From Oricola sp. (GTDB lineage Bacteria; Pseudomonadota; Alphaproteobacteria; Rhizobiales; Rhizobiaceae): DNA of 64,000 nt. Location: NCBI RefSeq assembly GCF_022763245.1, contig NZ_JALEGV010000011.1, positions 1 through 64,000 on the forward strand. The letters are read 5' to 3'. This document shows, in pieces, positions 54,056 through 63,553 of this stretch. A program made the position numbers and the translations under genes. The notes below the pieces were generated by a model. That model did no database searches. It saw only the letters and a list, made by a program, of their open reading frames with translations, and was not told where the DNA came from. Position 1 is the stretch's first letter, and every line of letters begins with the position of its first letter.

Positions 54056-55858
54056 TCAGAGCGTGGCCACGATGCGCCGCTGGGCCTGCCAGTCGGATGG
54101 CAACGGATTCTGGCCGAGCCGTTTTGCGGTCAGTCCGATCGGTTGATCGCCCTGCATGATCGATTTGACAATGTCGGGCGCTAGGAATGCCAGATCGATC
54201 ACCTGCAGGATGCGGCGCTTCGAGAGGCTTTCGGACGCAGCGATCTCCTCGAAGGTCTGACCGTGCTTGATGGCATTGTAATACTGATGCGCTTTGGCGA
54301 TGTTGCGGATCAGCGTTTCGTCGATGGATTGGCCTTGATCGTTTCCGATGATGAGCTTGGTTTCGACACCGCGCTTGCGGAACTGGAATGGGACCGAGAA
54401 CGACATCGCATCGGAGTTGATCGCTTTTGACTGAACAGATAGCCAGGCAGCGACGGGCTCGCCATCAAGAGCGATCTCAATCTTTCCCGGGGTAATCGTT
54501 GCTTGCTGGATGCAGGATAGGACAGCTTCCGGCTTCCTGGCCGATTTGCCTGACGCGGCTCCATCGAGCAAATCCCGGATGCGGCCGATATCATCGACTG
54601 AAGAATCGATCAGGAGATCGACGGGCAAACGATTGCGAAAATGGGTTTGGATCGCGGAAGACAACTGCTGTTCCAGCGACCTTGCCGGCAGCCGCCATCC
54701 GCTCGCAGCCTTCGATTTGTCGGCGTTCCCATCGCCGACGATCATGCGGTTGGAGGCATAGTATCGATATCGCCTGCCCTTCTTGTTGGCGTGGGTCGGA
54801 GTCAGACGATCTCCGGTCTCGTCGAATAGCTTGCCAGTGAGCGACGACCCCATGGATCCTGATGCCGACTGTCCCCTCCCTCTTCCTGCTGTTGCCATCA
54901 GGCGCTGCTGGACATCATCGAAGATCGCGGGATCGATGATCGCTGCGTGCTGGCCGTCATAGACCTGGCCCCGATGACGAATGCGACCGGCATAGATCGG
55001 ATTGGCCAGAATGTGATGGATGTGGCTTCGGCAGAAGGGAAGATTGCCAGCGGCGTTGCGAGTTCCCTTTGCTGATTGATTGGCAAGCTGTCCGTCGCTG
55101 CAATCCGCGATCACAATCTCATCAGAGCCTAATACCGGTGTCGCACCATCAATGCTGACCGGCTCGTTGCGGGCACTCTCGGCTGCTTTCGATGGTTTGA
55201 CCTCGGTCCCTCCCCTGGCCTTTGTTCGCAGCCCGATTCGGTCTGCCTGCTGTTTGACCGCCTTGACCGAACCATGTTCCAGATAGAGGTCGAACAACGT
55301 TCGAACCGTTCTGGCTTCGTCTTCCACTATCTTCAGCGTGCGCCCATCTGGCTCGTAGCCGAGTGGCACATTGCCACCCATCCAGAGCCCCTTCTTCTTC
55401 GAGGCGGCGATTTTGTCGCGGATGCGCTCGGCCGTGACCTCGCGCTCGAACTGGGCGAATGACAGGAGGACATTCAGCGTCAATCGACCCATGCTGGTGG
55501 CGGTGTTGAAGGACTGCGTCACCGACACGAAGGAAGCCTCGGCCGCATCCAGCCGTTCGACCAGTTTGGCGAAGTCCGCCAGCGATCGTGTTAGCCGGTC
55601 GATCTTGTAGACGACGATCTGATCGACCAGGCCTTCATCGACATCACGGAGGAGGCGCTGCAGCCCTGCCCGTTCCAGAGTTCCGCCGGATATGCCGCCG
55701 TCGTCATAGTGATCCGGCAGCAGCACCCAGCCTTCATGCTTCTGGCTGGTAATGTAGGAGACGCAGGCTTCTCGTTGGGCATGGAGCGAGTTGAACTCCT
55801 GTTCGAGCCCCTCCTCGGAGGACTTCCTCGTATAGATGGCGCAGCGGATCTTCTTCAT
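54056..55858 (-). CDS. large serine recombinase (platform copy 2)
   Basis: 600 residues from the ATG at 55858 (MKKIRCAIYTRKSSEEGLEQ), which overlaps DUF2924 (ATGA). A longer reading from 56002 is not credible. Same plan as the copy at 9096-10763, but about 45 residues are added after residue 220 (a stretch beginning KPSKAAESARNEPVSIDG) between the resolvase and recombinase domains. HTH at the end ENL/ESLSKRRILQVIDLAFLAPD as in copy 1. Confidence 0.92.
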   Translation of the reverse strand: MKKIRCAIYTRKSSEEGLEQEFNSLHAQREACVSYITSQKHEGWVLLPDHYDDGGISGGTLERAGLQRLLRDVDEGLVDQIVVYKIDRLTRSLADFAKLVERLDAAEASFVSVTQSFNTATSMGRLTLNVLLSFAQFEREVTAERIRDKIAASKKKGLWMGGNVPLGYEPDGRTLKIVEDEARTVRTLFDLYLEHGSVKAVKQQADRIGLRTKARGGTEVKPSKAAESARNEPVSIDGATPVLGSDEIVIADCSDGQLANQSAKGTRNAAGNLPFCRSHIHHILANPIYAGRIRHRGQVYDGQHAAIIDPAIFDDVQQRLMATAGRGRGQSASGSMGSSLTGKLFDETGDRLTPTHANKKGRRYRYYASNRMIVGDGNADKSKAASGWRLPARSLEQQLSSAIQTHFRNRLPVDLLIDSSVDDIGRIRDLLDGAASGKSARKPEAVLSCIQQATITPGKIEIALDGEPVAAWLSVQSKAINSDAMSFSVPFQFRKRGVETKLIIGNDQGQSIDETLIRNIAKAHQYYNAIKHGQTFEEIAASESLSKRRILQVIDLAFLAPDIVKSIMQGDQPIGLTAKRLGQNPLPSDWQAQRRIVATL

Positions 55859-56298
55859 GACGCGTCCAGTCCAAAGAAGCGCGGTCCCGACCAATGGGCT
55901 CCGGTGATCTTGCGGGCGATGGCACTCAGCGACCGGTACCGTTTGCCGTCCATCTGGAAGCCGTCGTCCAGCACCTCGACCTGATAGGACCGGCCGTTCC
56001 ACTCGCGCACGAGGTGCGTGCCCGGCCGTAGAGACATGGACGAGGCCGGCAGAGCCGATCTCGGCCTTCGAACGTCCTTCAAGGACCGTACGAGCGCCTT
56101 TCGAACCGCAGGCGAGTGCCGGCCATGAGCTTTCACCTGTGCCTCATAGGCCAGTGCCCGGCGCATGAATTGCACCGAGACGAATTTGGGAGGTTTCCGG
56201 CCGAACTGCTTCCCCCAAGCCTCGATGCAAGCGTCGCGATCCAGTTCGTCGAAGGCGGCAACATCGCTTCCGATCATGGATGACAACGCCGAGGTCAC
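55855..56298 (-). CDS. DUF2924 domain protein (platform copy 2)
   Basis: 147 residues from a GTG at 56298 overlapping the DUF3489 stop (GTGA). LRPGTHLVREWNGRSYQVEV and YRSLSAIARKITGAHWSGPRFFGL as in copy 1; four residues are missing in the middle (compare the KPNGKV stretch of copy 1). Same inferred role as its partner at 10760-11215. Confidence 0.88.
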   Translation of the reverse strand: MTSALSSMIGSDVAAFDELDRDACIEAWGKQFGRKPPKFVSVQFMRRALAYEAQVKAHGRHSPAVRKALVRSLKDVRRPRSALPASSMSLRPGTHLVREWNGRSYQVEVLDDGFQMDGKRYRSLSAIARKITGAHWSGPRFFGLDAS

Positions 56299-56678
56299 GA
56301 TACCGCCTCATCGGCGGCCTGCCCGCCCTCCTCGATTGGCGCCGAAACGATTGCGTAGACGGTCTCGCCGGTCTTCGGCGACTTCGAGGTCGTGACCTCG
56401 ATGCCCTGTTTGCGCAGGCCCGATATTGTCGCGCGCACCGTGTGCGCCTGCCAGCCCAGGCGCTCGACGATCACCGAAATGCGCGCGCCATTCGGCTTCG
56501 ACAGCAGGGCGACAAGCTGGTCCTTCTTGCTCTTCGCAGCCGATTTGCCGGTGCCGGCTAACTTCGGTTTGATGGCTGCACGCGGTGTACGCTTGGTGGC
56601 AGGCTTTTTGATTGCGTGGGTCTCGGTATTGATGGCCTTGCCGCTGTCGCCGCCATTCTCGATGATTTGGGTGTTCAT
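56295..56678 (-). CDS. DUF3489 domain protein (platform copy 2)
   Basis: 127 residues from the ATG at 56678 (GGAGAA upstream, same as copy 1). C-terminal winged-helix domain SKKDQLVALLSKPNGARISV...GLRKQGIEV is almost identical to copy 1; the N-terminal low-complexity part differs by small indels. Confidence 0.88.
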   Translation of the reverse strand: MNTQIIENGGDSGKAINTETHAIKKPATKRTPRAAIKPKLAGTGKSAAKSKKDQLVALLSKPNGARISVIVERLGWQAHTVRATISGLRKQGIEVTTSKSPKTGETVYAIVSAPIEEGGQAADEAVS

Positions 56679-57170
56679 GCTGTTCTCCACTCAATTTTCG
56701 AGGCCGGATTATCCGGCTTCGCACTGAGTGAAGCCCGCGGCGCGGGCACGGTCAGCCGATAAGCGCAGCTTGACCTGCCAACACTACCGCTTCCTTTGCC
56801 GACGAAGTCGAGCGGGAAAACGCTCAAAAGGAGACTTTCTTTGCGGATCGAATATGTCGGCGAATTGCGAGCGGATTCGCAATGGTCAGGTATGCCCAGG
56901 AAGACGCCGCAATCTGCCTAGCGCCGCAACAGCGGCCTTTCTGTCAATGACAGTTCTGCGCCCTCGTATCGGTCATTTAGAAACCCGGCGCATTGTCCCG
57001 AAAGCTCCCATTGCGATGGCCGGCCGACGATCACTCAGGTGTCGACTCCGGCTCGCTCCAAGTGCATCCTACCTAGATAATAGTGAGAAGGTATTTGTTT
57101 ATTCTGGCCCGCTGGCGCACGGGCATCATGTTCAGAACCCTTCGCGCCCTCTGCAATAAAGTATTTGATC
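56679..57170. other. non-coding right arm of platform copy 2
   Basis: No gene supported. Up to about 57007 it aligns with the region right of copy 1 (GAAGTCGAGCGGGAAAACGC shared). The last 160 bases are unique and should hold the promoter of the cargo operon that starts at 57171. Confidence 0.5.
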
Positions 57171-58223
57171 ATGACCACGAGCATCTCCAGCACGAAATCC
57201 AAGGTCACCTTCCTGGAAACCGTCTATCCGCCGATTTCCAATCAGGAGGCCATCTGGCTTCAGAATGACCCGGAGGTGGAGGCGCTGCTCAGGCAGAGTG
57301 ACTTCTATATGATTGGAGGTCGCGCCGAGGCGAAATACTTGAACCTCGTCATCGATCCTGAGACCTACGTCATCACCTTCGACTTCGCGATAGGCGACGA
57401 TTTTCGCGACCCCGTCGTGATCCGCATCCGCGACCTGCCAGCCGTCGAGGAATCGGACGCCGAGTCCTATTGGATTGAGGCTGGCGACAAAAATATCCGG
57501 GTATGGGACGGGCCGATCGGCGAGCCCGGCTCGGACGTTCTGGAGTGGTTCACGACCGAGAAGCTGATCTGGGATCGGTCGCGCGGCCGTGCCGGTCTCG
57601 AGCGCTTCGATCGTTACCGCGAGGCCGCGACCTATGATCTCCTTTATGTCGGCATCGCCAAGGTCGGAGACAGCTTCGATCGCCTCATCAGCAATGGGCA
57701 CAAGGCCCGCATGGAGATTCTCGGCAACGAGCCCCAGCGCTATCCCGGAGCGCGGGTGACCGACGAAATCTATCTGTTCCTGTTTAACGTCCAGCCGCTG
57801 ATCATGACGACCTTTGAACCGGAGCATGACTTCGAGAACGAGGATTTCAGCGGTGCCTACGACCGGAAGCGTATCGTCGCCGACGCCGAGAAGGCTTTCG
57901 TCAGCCTCCTGAAGCCCGAATACAACGTGGTGAAGTTCGCGAGCTACCCGAAGGGCGCGGACGGCCTCTACGGCTCCGACTTCGTTCGCTACGGCTACGC
58001 GATCTGCGAGGCCATTTCCTTCAACACGGCGCATAGCCGGATCAGGGGAAGCCGGGACGCGGCCACCGGCTTCATTACCAATGATGCCGACAGCATCTTC
58101 GTCGAAGGAAACACCGTGAAGTTGTTCGTCTCGGGCGTCGACTTCCCGGCCGTGCCGCCGCCAGCCGCGGCGAATGCGGCTCCCCGAGGCAACCATAAGG
58201 AAGAAAACCAGGGGGGTGTATGA
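57171..58223 (+). CDS. GIY-YIG-like endonuclease-type protein, cargo gene 1
   Basis: 350 residues from the ATG at 57171 (a TTG at 57165 is the alternative). In the middle, YDLLYVGIAKVGDSFDRLISNGHK matches the YxG...R...H pattern of GIY-YIG domains, and DAEKAFVSLLKPEYN has the catalytic Glu and Asn context at the end. The N-terminal 130 residues are beta-rich and unassigned. It starts a coupled operon (ATGA with the ATPase gene). A nuclease role in defence is inferred from context. Confidence 0.65.
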   Translation: MTTSISSTKSKVTFLETVYPPISNQEAIWLQNDPEVEALLRQSDFYMIGGRAEAKYLNLVIDPETYVITFDFAIGDDFRDPVVIRIRDLPAVEESDAESYWIEAGDKNIRVWDGPIGEPGSDVLEWFTTEKLIWDRSRGRAGLERFDRYREAATYDLLYVGIAKVGDSFDRLISNGHKARMEILGNEPQRYPGARVTDEIYLFLFNVQPLIMTTFEPEHDFENEDFSGAYDRKRIVADAEKAFVSLLKPEYNVVKFASYPKGADGLYGSDFVRYGYAICEAISFNTAHSRIRGSRDAATGFITNDADSIFVEGNTVKLFVSGVDFPAVPPPAAANAAPRGNHKEENQGGV

Positions 58224-60574
58224 TCAATCGCGGTTCCGAATGGCATCGATGGGAGCCGCATATCCATGCGCCCGGCACCCTGTTCAACAACCAATTCAAA
58301 GGCCCGAACGCCTGGAGCGACTATCTCACCAGCCTCGAACAGGCGACCCCGGTTATCTGCGCGATTGCGGTGACCGACTATTATTGCACCGACACCTATC
58401 AGGACGTTGTCCGAGAGATGAATGAAAACGGCCGCCTGCCACAGGTCGCGCTTGTTTTCCCTAATGTCGAGCTGCGGCTCGACGTGGCGACGGTGAAAGA
58501 GCGCTGGACCAACATCCACCTGCTCGTCTGCCCCGACGATCCGAAACATGGGGCGGAGGTCGAACGATTTCTCAGCCGGCTGAGATTTGAAGCCTTTGGC
58601 GACAACTTCGCCTGCACGCGAGAAGACCTAGCCAAGCTGGGCCGGAAGTCCAAGCCGGAGCTGAGCGAAGAGCGGGCCGCGTTCCGCCACGGGGCTTCGC
58701 AGTTCAAGGTCAACTTCGGAAAGTTGCGCGAAGAATATGGCAAGAGCGATTGGGCGAAGGAGAACATCCTGATTGCCGTCGCAGGGGCCGAAACCGATGG
58801 AACGTCCGGCATCCGCGATGCAAATGACGCAACCTTGCGACAGGAAATCGAGAAGTTCGCGCATGTCATTTTTGCCAGCAGTCCGGCGCAGCGCGATTTC
58901 TGGCTGGGGCGAAAAAACGGCGTCGGAGAGGACGTGCTTCGCGAGCGATACGACGGCTGCAAGCCCTGCCTGCACGGCAGCGACTCGCATGAGCAAGCTA
59001 CCGTCGCCAAGCCCGATGGCGACCGCTATTCCTGGATCAAGGGCGCGTTGGAGTTCGACGCGCTGCGCCAAGCCTATATCGATCCCGCCGGGCGGGCCTA
59101 TGTCGGCCCCCATCCCCCGTTTCGGGCTACCCCCGCGCGTGTCATTGCGGAGATAGAGTTGACGGGAGCGGACTGGGCACAGACACCTAGGCTCGCACTC
59201 AATCCCGGATTGGTCGCCATCATTGGCGCGCGGGGCTCGGGCAAGACCGCGCTCGCCGATGCGATCGCCGCGGGCTGCGACGCCACGGACGGCCGCTTGA
59301 GCAACGCGTCGTTTATCGTGCGGGCCCGTGAGCATCTCGACGGTGCCGGCGTCCGATTGACCTGGGAGACCGGCGACCCGTCGGTGCGCCCTTTGCTCGA
59401 CGATTCCTTTGATCCTTCGCTCTATCCGCGGGCGCGCTATCTCTCACAGAAATTCGTCGAAGAGCTGTGCTCGGCCGACGGCGTCAAGGACGAATTGCTG
59501 AGCGAGATCGAGCGGGTCATTTTCGAAGCCCACAGCACGCTCGAACGCGACGGCGCGACAGATTTCGGCGAACTGCTTGACCTTCGAACGACGGTGTTAC
59601 GCGACAATCGCAGCCGCGACGAGGACGCCATCGCGACCCTGTCCGATCAGGTCGGGCTCGAACGCGAGAAACAAAGCCAGATCACCGGCCTCAAGTCGCA
59701 AATCACTCAGAAAGAAGCGCTGATCGCCGGCTATATCAAAAGCCGAGATACATTGGTGACCACAGGCAGCGCGGAGCGGATCGAGCGGCTGAATGCGCTG
59801 ACCGAAGCGGCCGATCTCGCCCGGACACAGATTCGGTTGTGGTCGCAGGAAACCCAAGCCCTCCGGTCTTTGCAGAACGACGTGTCGGATTTCCGAACCA
59901 ACCGCGCGCCGATGGCGCTGCGCACGACCAAGCAGAACTTTGTCGGCGCGCATCTGGATGACAATGCTTGGGAGGTTTTCCGGCAGACCTACGCCGGCAA
60001 CGTCGACGGGACATTGACCGAGCGCCTTGCCAAGGCCGAGAAGGCAACGGCCGGGTGGCGGGGTAAAGAACTGCCCCGTAAGGCAAACGACCAAGAGCCC
60101 TATGTGGCCGACGACGCTGAGTTGAAGCGATTGTCGCTGGGCGAACTTGAGGCCGAGATCGGCCGCATTCAGCGCCTCATCAACATCGATACGGACACCG
60201 CCAATCGCCTGCGAGCGATAACCACCAAAATCGGGGACGAGAACGCTACGCTGAAGCGCCTGAAGGAAGCGCTGACCGATTGCGAAGGCGCCGCGGCGCG
60301 GACCGCCCAACTCCAAAAAGATCGCGAGCAGGCCTATTTGCGCGGGTCTTCGAATCCATCGTCGCGGAAGAGCAAGTGCTGCATGCGCTGTATCGCCCGC
60401 TCATGGATCGGCTCGCGCAGGCGTCCGGCACGCTGCGCAAATTATCGTTCTCGGTGTCCCGTCATGCAGACGTGCATCGCTGGGCGGCTGAGGGCGAAGG
60501 CTTGTTCGACAAGCGGCGCACTGGCCCGTTCAAGGGCGTTGGCACATTGGAGATTTGGGCAGACGCGCTGCTGA
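58220..60574 (+). CDS. TrlF-like PHP and SMC-type ATPase, N-terminal part (frameshifted), cargo gene 2
   Basis: Reads 784 codons but only about the first 706 are homologous; the last 78 are out of frame. Domains: PHP-like phosphoesterase at 1-260 (HIHAPG, TDYYCTD, PNVELR, HGSDSHEQAT), Walker A ARGSGKTALADA at about 334, then a long coiled coil (about 420-700). The TrlF family (RefSeq name, from memory) combines this N-terminus with an SMC-like ATPase. The rest of the ATPase head is at 60280-61185 in another frame. A single base lost near 60320-60345 would explain this. It overlaps the GIY-YIG gene by four bases. Confidence 0.75.
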   Translation: MINRGSEWHRWEPHIHAPGTLFNNQFKGPNAWSDYLTSLEQATPVICAIAVTDYYCTDTYQDVVREMNENGRLPQVALVFPNVELRLDVATVKERWTNIHLLVCPDDPKHGAEVERFLSRLRFEAFGDNFACTREDLAKLGRKSKPELSEERAAFRHGASQFKVNFGKLREEYGKSDWAKENILIAVAGAETDGTSGIRDANDATLRQEIEKFAHVIFASSPAQRDFWLGRKNGVGEDVLRERYDGCKPCLHGSDSHEQATVAKPDGDRYSWIKGALEFDALRQAYIDPAGRAYVGPHPPFRATPARVIAEIELTGADWAQTPRLALNPGLVAIIGARGSGKTALADAIAAGCDATDGRLSNASFIVRAREHLDGAGVRLTWETGDPSVRPLLDDSFDPSLYPRARYLSQKFVEELCSADGVKDELLSEIERVIFEAHSTLERDGATDFGELLDLRTTVLRDNRSRDEDAIATLSDQVGLEREKQSQITGLKSQITQKEALIAGYIKSRDTLVTTGSAERIERLNALTEAADLARTQIRLWSQETQALRSLQNDVSDFRTNRAPMALRTTKQNFVGAHLDDNAWEVFRQTYAGNVDGTLTERLAKAEKATAGWRGKELPRKANDQEPYVADDAELKRLSLGELEAEIGRIQRLINIDTDTANRLRAITTKIGDENATLKRLKEALTDCEGAAARTAQLQKDREQAYLRGSSNPSSRKSKCCMRCIARSWIGSRRRPARCANYRSRCPVMQTCIAGRLRAKACSTSGALARSRALAHWRFGQTRC

Positions 60575-61185
60575 AGCCAGCGTGGGAGTCGGGCAATCCG
60601 AAAGCCGTCGCCGAGGCGATGGCGGGATTTCGCCAGGCCCACCAAGCCGAGCTTCTCGATCTCTCCGAGGTGCCGCGATCACAGCAAGCGGATTATCGCT
60701 CCTGGTTAAAGCGGTTCGCCAAATGGCTCTATGGCACCAGCCATATCGAGATCAGCTACAGCATCGACTATGAAGCCGTTGATATTCGCAAGCTCTCTCC
60801 GGGCACGCGCGGCATTGTCCTGTTGCTGCTCTATCTCGCCCTGGATGACAGCGATGACCGCCCGCTAATCATCGACCAGCCGGAGGAAAACCTCGATCCG
60901 AAGTCGATCTTCGACGAACTGGTCGAGTTGTTCATCGCCGCGAAGAATGTGCGCCAGGTCATTATGGTGACGCACAACGCAAACCTCGTCGTCAATACGG
61001 ACGCCGATCAGGTCATCGTCGCGTTTTCCGGCACGCATACGCCCGGCAGCCTGCCGCCCATCCGCTACCTATCGGGTGGCCTCGAAAGCGTGGAGATGCG
61101 CAAGCATGTCTGCGACATCCTCGAAGGTGGCGACCGCGCCTTCAAGGAGCGCGCACGGCGGCTTCGCGTCCGTCTCGATCGATGA
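60280..61185 (+). CDS. TrlF-like ATPase, C-terminal part after the frameshift
   Basis: 301-codon frame, of which about 280 (from near 60340) are the continuation of the ATPase: ABC signature-like LSPGTRGIVLLLLYLALD, Walker B RPLIIDQPEENLDPKSIFDEL and H-loop VIMVTHNANLVVNTDAD. It lacks its own ribosome site; the first 20 residues are read from the wrong frame. Together with 58220-60574 it would make a protein of about 985 residues. Either the gene is broken, the reading is a sequencing error, or frameshifting is used. Confidence 0.7.
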   Translation: MRRRRGADRPTPKRSRAGLFARVFESIVAEEQVLHALYRPLMDRLAQASGTLRKLSFSVSRHADVHRWAAEGEGLFDKRRTGPFKGVGTLEIWADALLKPAWESGNPKAVAEAMAGFRQAHQAELLDLSEVPRSQQADYRSWLKRFAKWLYGTSHIEISYSIDYEAVDIRKLSPGTRGIVLLLLYLALDDSDDRPLIIDQPEENLDPKSIFDELVELFIAAKNVRQVIMVTHNANLVVNTDADQVIVAFSGTHTPGSLPPIRYLSGGLESVEMRKHVCDILEGGDRAFKERARRLRVRLDR

Positions 61186-62816
61186 GGACGGACGACGACA
61201 TGGAAAGCGAACTAGGTCCTGATCGCATTGGCCGCATTGGCGAACGGCAGTTCGAAGTGCTCTGCGAGCGCGCAGGCCTTTATTGCAACAAGAGCGCCGT
61301 CGACGTCATGGGGTGGGACTTCATCGTAGAGTTCCCGATGGGGCCGGCCGGCCAGGCGCTACCTCTCGATCAACGCCCCACCAACGCCGCACGGGTACAA
61401 TTGAAGTCGACACTCGGCCGAGCCGGCAATCGCATCCGCCTCAGCCTGTCCGCCATTGATCGCCTCGCCAAGGACCCTCGGCCGGCGCTCATCGTCGTGT
61501 TTCGGCTGCGAGCCGACGGCGAACTCCAATCCGCTTATCTCGTCCACCTTATCGGGAATGAGCTCGCGCGCGTTCTCAGGCGTTTGAGACTGGCGGAGGC
61601 CCGCAAGGCTCACGACATCAACCACACCGATATCAGCTACGACTACGAGAAAGTCGGGGTACGCTTCGAGCCGACCCCCGCCGGCTTGTTGGCAGCCCTG
61701 ACTGCTGCCTGCGGTCAAAATCCCGGTGCCTATACAATCGAGAAGCAACGACAGCTCGCCGAACTTGGCTATGAAAACGGCCAGTTCGAGGCCGAGGCAC
61801 TTATCCAGATCGAGGGTCCGGAGCATTTCAGCAATCTGTTGCTCGGCCTCGCGCCCTTGAAGCCGCATCGGCTTCGCGTGTTCGACAACCGGTTCGGCAT
61901 ACGTCTGCCCTACCATGGCACGCTTTTCGACGATATCGAAGAGCTGCGCATTACGCCTCCTACTCTGGGTTCCTGTGATATTTCGATCCGCGGACCCAAC
62001 TTCGGACAAGCGGCGCGGTTCGACGGCGAAATGTTCATCGGGCCGCCGATGGCGGAGCCTCATGGAGCAGAGCTCCTCATCCGCACCCCGGACTTCATCA
62101 TCCGGCTGACACCGCCGGCGCTCAAGTTCGAGAGCGTCGGCTCGATCGATGAAATGGAGCATTCTCTGGAGGAGTGGGCGGAGCTGCTTCGCGCTCTCAC
62201 GCTCATGGCGATGGGGCGAGCGACCCTGACGATTGCCGGAAATGACCGCATCTCCTCGATTTCCTTCCCGGTCGATCAACCCATCACCGGACCGTACCTC
62301 GAGGAGATTCCGCTGATTTCCACATTCTTGGACGGGTGGCTTCAGCTTCTCACGAATGCGGGCCTTCGGTCGACCGCTAGATTCAAGTTCGATGCGTTCT
62401 GGGAGGCCAATGAAGCACGCATGGCCGTGGACATCCTGCTCCAGCCGCAATCCGAGGCCCGCTTCGAATTCCAGACCCTTGAGATTGAAGAGTCGTCGCC
62501 GCCGCCCGAAGGCCTGTATTTCAACAGCACGTCCTTCGCCGACACCAGCATAACCTTCAGCGCGAAGGTCTTCTTCGAGCAGTCGGGTGATCCAGAATGG
62601 CGGTTTCGGTCAACCCGTTTCGAGGCTCTCGACGTTCGACCGAAGGTCGATGATCTTGAAGAATACGGAATAGACCAGGCGACAGCCTGCAACCTGAAAC
62701 TCCTCATCGACCCGAGGAACATCACATTGGCGCCTCGGAGGGACATCCCTGAAGCGCCCATCACATCCGATCTTCAGGAGAAAAGCCGGCAACCGTCGCA
62801 CACGCGCCTTGTTTAA
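61182..62816 (+). CDS. DUF4365/PD-(D/E)XK-like nuclease fused to a large unknown domain, cargo gene 3
   Basis: 544 residues; start at 61182 overlaps the ATPase stop (ATGA), or ATG 61200 with AGGA upstream. N-terminal residues about 15-130: GERQFEVLCERAG, VMGWDFIVEFP, ARVQLKST and an arm-like strand, which is a restriction-like fold with E, D and QxK. This is typical of DUF4365 nucleases. The C-terminal 380 residues are beta-rich and not recognised. Located last in the operon with the GIY-YIG-like gene and the PHP ATPase. Confidence 0.65.
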   Translation: MRTDDDMESELGPDRIGRIGERQFEVLCERAGLYCNKSAVDVMGWDFIVEFPMGPAGQALPLDQRPTNAARVQLKSTLGRAGNRIRLSLSAIDRLAKDPRPALIVVFRLRADGELQSAYLVHLIGNELARVLRRLRLAEARKAHDINHTDISYDYEKVGVRFEPTPAGLLAALTAACGQNPGAYTIEKQRQLAELGYENGQFEAEALIQIEGPEHFSNLLLGLAPLKPHRLRVFDNRFGIRLPYHGTLFDDIEELRITPPTLGSCDISIRGPNFGQAARFDGEMFIGPPMAEPHGAELLIRTPDFIIRLTPPALKFESVGSIDEMEHSLEEWAELLRALTLMAMGRATLTIAGNDRISSISFPVDQPITGPYLEEIPLISTFLDGWLQLLTNAGLRSTARFKFDAFWEANEARMAVDILLQPQSEARFEFQTLEIEESSPPPEGLYFNSTSFADTSITFSAKVFFEQSGDPEWRFRSTRFEALDVRPKVDDLEEYGIDQATACNLKLLIDPRNITLAPRRDIPEAPITSDLQEKSRQPSHTRLV

Positions 62817-63104
62817 GAAATAGTTAGTCCGCCAGCAGCGCGCGAGAATGTCTGTCTTTGCAGCAAGTAGGTGATGGCGAGTATCCGCTTGGGAGATACA
62901 TTCCCTTATGGCCGCTATCAGCCGATTACTCCTGAAAAGCGGTTGGTCTGCTTGCGGCCCCTAATTGGACATTCAACCATCGCCGAATCCGATGTCGCAT
63001 AACGCGCGTTCTGGAAGTCGGCGCTGTGTCTGAGAGTGCCCCGAAAGCGGACGTGGGGATATTCAATCGAATAGACCGCTTTTGACCCACAACGGTCATC
63101 GGCC
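62817..63104. other. non-coding stretch with right-end 16-mer
   Basis: Between cargo 2 and the IS3 fragment; no gene supported. CCCCTAATTGGACATT at 62958-62973 also occurs at 17039-17054 behind cargo 1. The part from 62958 to 63060 reads like a dispersed alphaproteobacterial intergenic repeat: minus-strand translations such as VECPIRGR and RFRGTLRHSAD recur in many genomes, from memory. Confidence 0.45.
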
Positions 63105-63553
63105 CTAGCCGCGCCGTTCGGCGATCGCGTCCAGTTCGCGAGCGACACGTTCTCCCGAGATCGAGTTGTCGACCATCGTCGCTAGGCATTCCCGGCTGAA
63201 GTCGTCGATGACGCACAGGATGCGGAAGCGGCGTCCGTCGATCAGCGTGTCCGACACAAAGTCGAGTGACCATCCCTGGTTCGAATCCTGCGAGATCGCC
63301 ATCGGCGCCCTTGTGCCCAAGGCTCGTTTGCGGCCGCCACGTTTGCGAACCGTGAGCCGTTCCTCCCTGTAGAGGCGGTAGAGCTTCTTCCAGTTCACCG
63401 CGACGCCTTCGCGCTTCAATAGCAGATGCAGGCGACGATAGCCTAACCGCCGTCGTTCCGACGACAGCTCCCACAAGCGCTGTCGAAGGCCAGCATCGTC
63501 CGGCCTGCTCGACTGGTAGCGGAAGACGCGCGGCTCAATGCCGACGATCTACT
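63105..63553 (-). pseudogene. truncated IS3-family transposase (orfB)
   Basis: From minus-strand position 63553 the frame reads IEPRVFRYQSSRPDDAGL and continues into WELSSERRRLGYRRLHLLL, then LDFVSDTLIDGRRFRILCVIDDFSREC (the second Asp-containing core of IS3 orfB), and stops at TAG 63105 soon after. The third catalytic segment (SDNG...) is missing, and the N-terminal part too. This is an inactive fragment of an IS407/IS511-like element. Confidence 0.78.

Follow-up and report, generated by a model that had tools for sequence, protein, structure and literature searches.

We think it probable that the locus at positions 57171-62816 of the window is a decayed version of a mobile, modular anti-phage or anti-plasmid operon built around a Ppl-like TrlF ATPase. 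The window is the whole stretch of DNA that was analysed and corresponds to bases 1-64000 of a contig of 292,099 bases in a 5.63-Mb genome. Three genes lie at the locus on the same strand (+): P1 (57171-58223; 350 aa), an ATPase gene (58220-61185) and P3 (61182-62816; 544 aa). As an earlier note on this DNA had described, they are joined by 4-base stop/start overlaps (ATGA) at 58220 (P1/TrlF) and 61182 (TrlF/P3), and we found both overlaps and the frames of P1 and P3. In general terms the note's picture also held: a TrlF ATPase together with a DUF4365-like nuclease and a protein that is probably GIY-YIG-like, in surroundings that are mobile and rich in defence genes. To the little-understood PHP-SMC ATPases of the TrlF/Ppl kind, the locus would add a toxin-antitoxin-linked operon form, together with two protein families, of which P1 is unmodelled and P3 marginally modelled in the libraries searched. 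Natural copies that lack single genes offer a direct test of which parts are required and of whether the neighbouring genes are under the control of the ATPase.

The middle gene had been read as a PHP phosphoesterase joined to a coiled-coil ATPase. We could assign it to the TrlF family (NF045780, cut-off 350 bits; PHP and ATPase parts), although a frameshift of two bases near 60,340 breaks the single gene frame assumed for it. Read from 58220, the first frame runs out at 60574; the C-terminal part of the ATPase lies in a different frame, at 60280-61185. The 5′ part (58220-60339, +), which carries the PHP domain, Walker A motif and coiled coil, is intact up to the frameshift and scored 364 bits against NF045780 (positions 1-676). 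The 3′ part (60346-61185, +), the C-terminal half of the ATPase and out of frame with the 5′ part, scored 292 bits (positions 673-943) and matched Pfam AAA_21 (9e-11). For comparison, the intact relative in L038 scored 675 bits, and the next-best TrlF match in the source genome of the window 41 bits. Alignment with four copies that are single uninterrupted proteins (L038, L040, L028 and L014) placed the length difference, two extra bases in the window, at 60337-60346 (+). Since intact copies exist, the window copy is either a recent pseudogene or an assembly error. Unless it is the latter, TrlF is probably inactive in this genome, where P1 and P3 could still act alone. The window translation keeps the PHP-type motifs, with HxH at the start, TDYY where TDH is more usual, the E in VELR and the H in IHLL, and it also contains HGSDSH and GARGSGKT. 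In the alignment, four other TrlF-family proteins (L122, L123, L125 and L146) have a first PHP motif without the HxH histidines. The TrlF coding region of a Labrenzia plasmid (L161) carries no gene annotation and is interrupted by a stop within the part that matched; it is apparently a further broken copy.

GIY-YIG nucleases share a catalytic pattern of conserved Tyr/Gly, Arg, Glu and Asn residues, and the earlier note had seen a similar pattern in P1. The 38 sequences of the P1 family share eight invariant residues (L157, Y159, G161, I162, R171, H177, E240 and N252), and two further positions, Y155 and L158, hardly vary; this set is consistent with GIY-YIG. The family models gave no such agreement: the Pfam GIY-YIG model was significant in none of the 38 members, one of which matched GIY_YIG_2 at E = 0.2, and the window P1 had no match in Pfam, NCBIfam or PADLOC. 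An AlphaFold model of P1 (pLDDT 83, pTM 0.80, but pLDDT 63-70 at residues 161-200) contained a strand at 154-162, helices at 167-174 and 177-186, a strand at 198-215 and a helix at 232-247, an order that we take to be compatible with a GIY-YIG domain. Fold and profile searches of P1 against PDB and BFVD returned no significant match, and hhalign comparisons with two small sets of annotated GIY-YIG proteins were negative. By motif and predicted topology, P1 is a probable GIY-YIG-like nuclease, an assignment that the HMM and fold searches did not confirm.

P3 (61182-62816, +) combines a DUF4365-like, candidate PD-(D/E)xK N-terminus with a tail of ~380 aa that belongs to no known family and that the note had called unrecognised. 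The family alignment contains a conserved D...(E/Q)xK core, in which D46, E50, Q73 and K75 are identical in all 16 rows (one gene appears in two of them). E21 is variable. Pfam DUF4365 (PF14280) matched two of 15 family members (best E 1.3e-4), and the window P3 had no match in Pfam, NCBIfam or PADLOC. A comparison with one DUF4365 protein by hhalign was weak (E 0.0014, probability 17%), the family profile had no significant match to a PDB chain, and the predicted model had a pLDDT of 33. By its invariant D, E and QxK residues, the N-terminus of P3 looks DUF4365-like, and P3 is a candidate nuclease.

To place the locus among its relatives, genomes were scanned with the P1 alignment, which gave 38 loci (L038-L075). 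TrlF adjoins P1 in three of these: L038 (Roseiarcaceae bacterium H3SJ34-1), L039 (Cereibacter ovatus, whose contig also holds the IMG/VR locus L028) and L040 (a MAG from the Rhodospirillales). The earlier note had called for a survey for conserved gene order and had allowed that the ATPase might never occur with the other two genes. The order P1-TrlF-P3 recurs as in the window in two other species (L038 and L040), and P1-TrlF in L039. A fourth locus with a close P1 relative, L041 (Xanthobacter autotrophicus AM3), lies on a contig that ends 127 bases past the P1 match. In the remaining 34 loci, whose P1 is at most 76% identical to that of the window, the neighbourhoods examined, some cut by contig ends, contained no TrlF.

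Upstream of P1, L038 and L040 carry an antitoxin-like ORF of ~100 aa, a VapC/PIN protein (Pfam PIN 3e-12 in L038) and a 274-aa protein of no family (orf274). The same three front genes precede P1 in L041, which thus has the first four genes of the six-gene form. Because the front genes occur in L038, L040 and L041, closely spaced or overlapping with one another and with P1, we read the full operon as antitoxin-like ORF - VapC - orf274 - P1 - TrlF - P3. We infer from its position that the ~100-aa ORF is an antitoxin; no model matched it. The complete operon of six genes speaks against a self-contained three-part system in which the ATPase senses for two nucleases, as had been proposed. The window is without the first three genes: it aligns with L038 over 57141-62795 at 91% and with L040 over 57139-62770 at 86%, both alignments starting ~30 bases before P1. 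A short stretch at 57124-57170 (+), where blastn alignments with L041 and L038 reach 47 and 30 bases upstream of P1, is a possible decayed remnant of the orf274 3′ end. This match suggests, without proving it, that the front genes were lost from the window. Elsewhere, orf274 follows an AbiE pair in Bradyrhizobium (L191) and lies near an S8 peptidase in Methylocystis (L192). The counts of genomes with single parts all include the window's own genome. P1 was found in 3 of 397 genomes sampled from the window's order. For P3, a protein search of 151 relatives gave 2 carriers, and a profile search of 297 genomes from the order gave 12. TrlF scored above the cut-off in 12 of the 385 class genomes and in 28 of the 398 genomes in the phylum sample.

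Copies in which single genes are missing were also found. In Paracoccus pAMI8 (L014), a TrlF 94% identical to that of L038 stands without P1 or P3 and is preceded by ~32 bases of the end of P1. The Cereibacter locus L028 retains P1-TrlF, and of P3 just the initial 53-61 bases. In G013 (L023), orf274 and P3 are present and nothing that lies between the two matches P1 or TrlF; the P3 of a Janthinobacterium plasmid (L008) has no accompanying TrlF; and L118 has a TrlF at 87% identity with, by DNA comparison, neither P1 nor P3. Only pieces of P3 are left in L188 and L189. In L182, an intact TrlF (58% identical) is followed by a same-strand P3, without P1; this P3 is only ~28% identical to the window P3 over the first ~270 residues, and a relative of it in L186 is preceded by a C-terminal fragment of TrlF. 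The TrlF tree groups L182 with the AbiE-linked L029 and L030, sister to the P1 clade (support 1.0). The TrlF-P3 pair may be ancestral to that clade or may have been assembled twice. A Sphingomonas plasmid (L009:8004-16415) carries a P3 relative at a distance of 4.3 kb from a TrlF gene, in front of which stand an AbiEi-like gene and an annotated antitoxin gene.

Selection on the parts was estimated from pairwise dN/dS (Nei-Gojobori, own script). For P1, values were 0.08-0.19 in nine of ten pairs, the tenth being window-L041 at 0.57 with a dS of only 0.04. For TrlF, ten pairs gave 0.05-0.10 over the 5′ part and 0.02-0.09 over the 3′ part; the higher values of the window pairs in the 3′ part (0.06-0.09 versus 0.02-0.04 for the others) are not evidence of relaxation, because the compared stretch begins with a few out-of-frame codons. 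All 15 P3 pairs fell at 0.10-0.14. Since pairwise values include the time before the genes separated, they do not date the losses. The finding that TrlF, P1 and P3 each occur without one or both of the others, at low pairwise dN/dS that includes this earlier time, and that the window ATPase is frameshifted, likewise runs counter to a three-part system. Companion toxin and nuclease genes appear to have been gained, lost and swapped singly around the ATPase.

A WEPHIHAPG-type motif was present in 31 of the 67 loci scanned (TrlF loci and the window), and eight of the 31 have a toxin or nuclease gene within 60 bases upstream of TrlF: P1 in four (window, L038, L039 and L040), AbiEii in three (L029, L030 and L161) and VapC in one (L033). 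Because the P1 set and L182 were found through the window or through P1/P3 searches, the count without those five is four of 26. The other long genes upstream encode a 437-aa protein in L032 and a T4CP in L163, with a 201-aa ORF in L158, and the remaining loci of this type have no upstream gene or only short ORFs of 81-121 aa. Directly before plasmid TrlFs, we noted AbiEi/AbiEii-type or AbrB-MazE/VapC genes (L029:917-5861, L030:912-5861, L161 and L033:2240-5849). In several loci, TrlFs of other subfamilies are followed by a gene that looks AlbA_2-like by eye, as in the Photorhabdus trl locus; the one scanned, in L131, had no NCBIfam match. Such a gene by eye also follows the TrlFs of L122, L123 and L125. 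A speculative and rather unlikely extension is that the WEPHIHAPG-subfamily TrlFs serve generally as a guard or licensing module and have repeatedly become translationally coupled to interchangeable toxins and nucleases (AbiE, VapBC, the 274-aa protein, P1 and P3). The outcome would be a combinatorial immune operon whose ATPase controls the adjoining effector. That only eight of the 31 subfamily members have a toxin or nuclease gene coupled upstream, four of them being the P1 set, counts against the modular operon that we favour.

A comparison with catalogued systems, which the earlier note had also proposed, placed TrlF (NF045780), while P1 and P3 matched no PADLOC model. The window gene has the PHP plus SMC-like ATPase architecture of the TrlF family and scored above its cut-off. 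The trl locus of Photorhabdus is TrlR-TrlG-TrlF, TrlG having AlbA_2/HATPase domains, and the passages on it in PMC7554251 place none of the selected mutations in trlF and leave the role of TrlF in the phenotype open. Whereas the partner of TrlF there is TrlG, here the partners are P1 and P3, plus the antitoxin-like ORF, VapC and the 274-aa protein in intact relatives; no adjacent TrlG (AlbA_2/HATPase) or TrlR is present at the window, where the neighbours P1 and P3 are without Pfam matches. Ppl of E. coli, as characterised in the relevant passages of a 2026 review (PMC12904381), is a single-gene system, a 3′-5′ ssDNA exonuclease that NTPs keep inactive and that 3′ ends trigger. Like TrlF, Ppl has a PHP domain followed by a related ATPase, and the C-terminal part of TrlF matches the Ppl profile (NF042955 6e-32 and PADLOC Ppl 3e-29 for the ATPase half of the intact L038 protein), but TrlF lies here in a multi-gene operon. 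Since Ppl is itself described as an exonuclease in those passages (PMC12904381), the TrlF ATPase protein may be an effector. Ppl proper was set aside as an identity: NF042955 has an equivalog cut-off of 1000 bits, far above the scores of the window pieces (33.6 and 77) and of L038 (110.5).

Lamassu, PARIS and Gabija resemble the locus in pairing an SMC/ABC-type ATPase with nuclease partners and in their modular effectors. For Lamassu and PARIS, however, the PADLOC matches are at the level of the ATPase only, in TrlF (LmuB 3e-5, AriA 4e-11). Gabija, which consists of a GajA with TOPRIM and the helicase GajB, was rejected, as the 5′ piece of TrlF matches GajA over the P-loop only (E 0.013); GajB was not among the matches listed for the TrlF pieces (the best 25 of 46 for the 3′ piece). 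DUF4365 nucleases such as DUF4365-APAZ, which reportedly belongs to short Argonaute systems, have the GWD...E...QxK core at the N-terminus, as does P3, but no Argonaute annotation occurs among the neighbour genes viewed here.

For the modular operon that we favour, we infer a mechanism whose biochemical steps are all hypothetical. By analogy, TrlF would act like its relative Ppl, with the ATPase half sensing DNA ends or a nucleotide state produced by the invader and the PHP domain serving as a nuclease. P1 and P3 would be further nucleases, co-expressed with TrlF and perhaps licensed by it, that may cut invading DNA, or the DNA of the cell in an abortive response. The toxin-antitoxin genes at the front might keep the island stable or contribute a further abortive layer. 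The parts are probably semi-independent, because single parts persist.

Besides our reading there are two others. One treats the genes as defence or selfish genes, each independent, that share a hotspot and form a passive cassette array with overlapping ends and no mutual dependence. This we regard as possible, if somewhat doubtful. It would account for the 35 of 38 P1 loci without TrlF in the stretch examined (one of the 35, L041, ends too early to judge), for P3 without TrlF in L008, L023, L179-L181, L183-L185 and L187, for TrlF without P1 and P3 in L014 and, by DNA comparison, L118, and for a P3 dN/dS of 0.11 between L008 and L023, both of which are without TrlF. Yet the ATGA coupling and the same order are found in three distinct lineages, and the TrlF-P3 adjacency recurs in L182 with a P3 only distantly similar to that of the window. 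The other is an obligate six-component (or TA-guarded) system whose dead fragments would be the copies in the window, in Cereibacter, in Paracoccus and elsewhere. The six-gene form in two species and its first four genes in a third, the scars of lost genes at gene boundaries, the frameshifted window TrlF and the fragmentary P3 genes of L188 and L189 all fit such a system. The full-length TrlF of L014 and the full-length P3 of L008, L023 and L187 have pairwise dN/dS far below 1, values that include the time before partner loss, and they argue against an obligate system, which we consider quite improbable.

A separate question is what the modular operon would be for. Its role could lie in plasmid or island stability, through addiction or competition between elements, instead of phage defence, and this we judge unlikely. 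The TA modules upstream and the recombinase beside the window copy are consistent with stability, as are matches to the C-terminal piece of TrlF in 1005 of 72,556 plasmid records, which are partly other ATPases since 976 of them are below 60% identity. Against this, the relatedness to Ppl and the Gabija- and PARIS-like neighbours point to defence, although both functions are compatible. Such neighbours include gajA-gajB Gabija pairs downstream of P1 relatives (L043:10194-13356 and L066:9675-13393; the gene table of L044 is the same as that of L043) and of a P3 relative (L023:10627-14864), and the P3 of L008 lies beside an AriA-like ATPase.

Near the window copy, a large serine recombinase that may be the island's mobility gene (54056-55900, -; Pfam Resolvase 2e-35, Recombinase 2e-12) lies beside genes with DUF2924 and DUF3489 domain matches (55855-56690, -), and a piece of an IS3-type transposase with rve and HTH_21 domains (62926-63476, -) lies just behind P3. 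At the edge of the L038 island, a tRNA-Met gene (L038:119-195) shares a stretch of 47-59 bases with sites beside TrlF in two other loci (L028:12441-12487 and L118:5979-6037), and the stretch common to the tRNA gene and these flanking sites may be a remnant of attachment sites.
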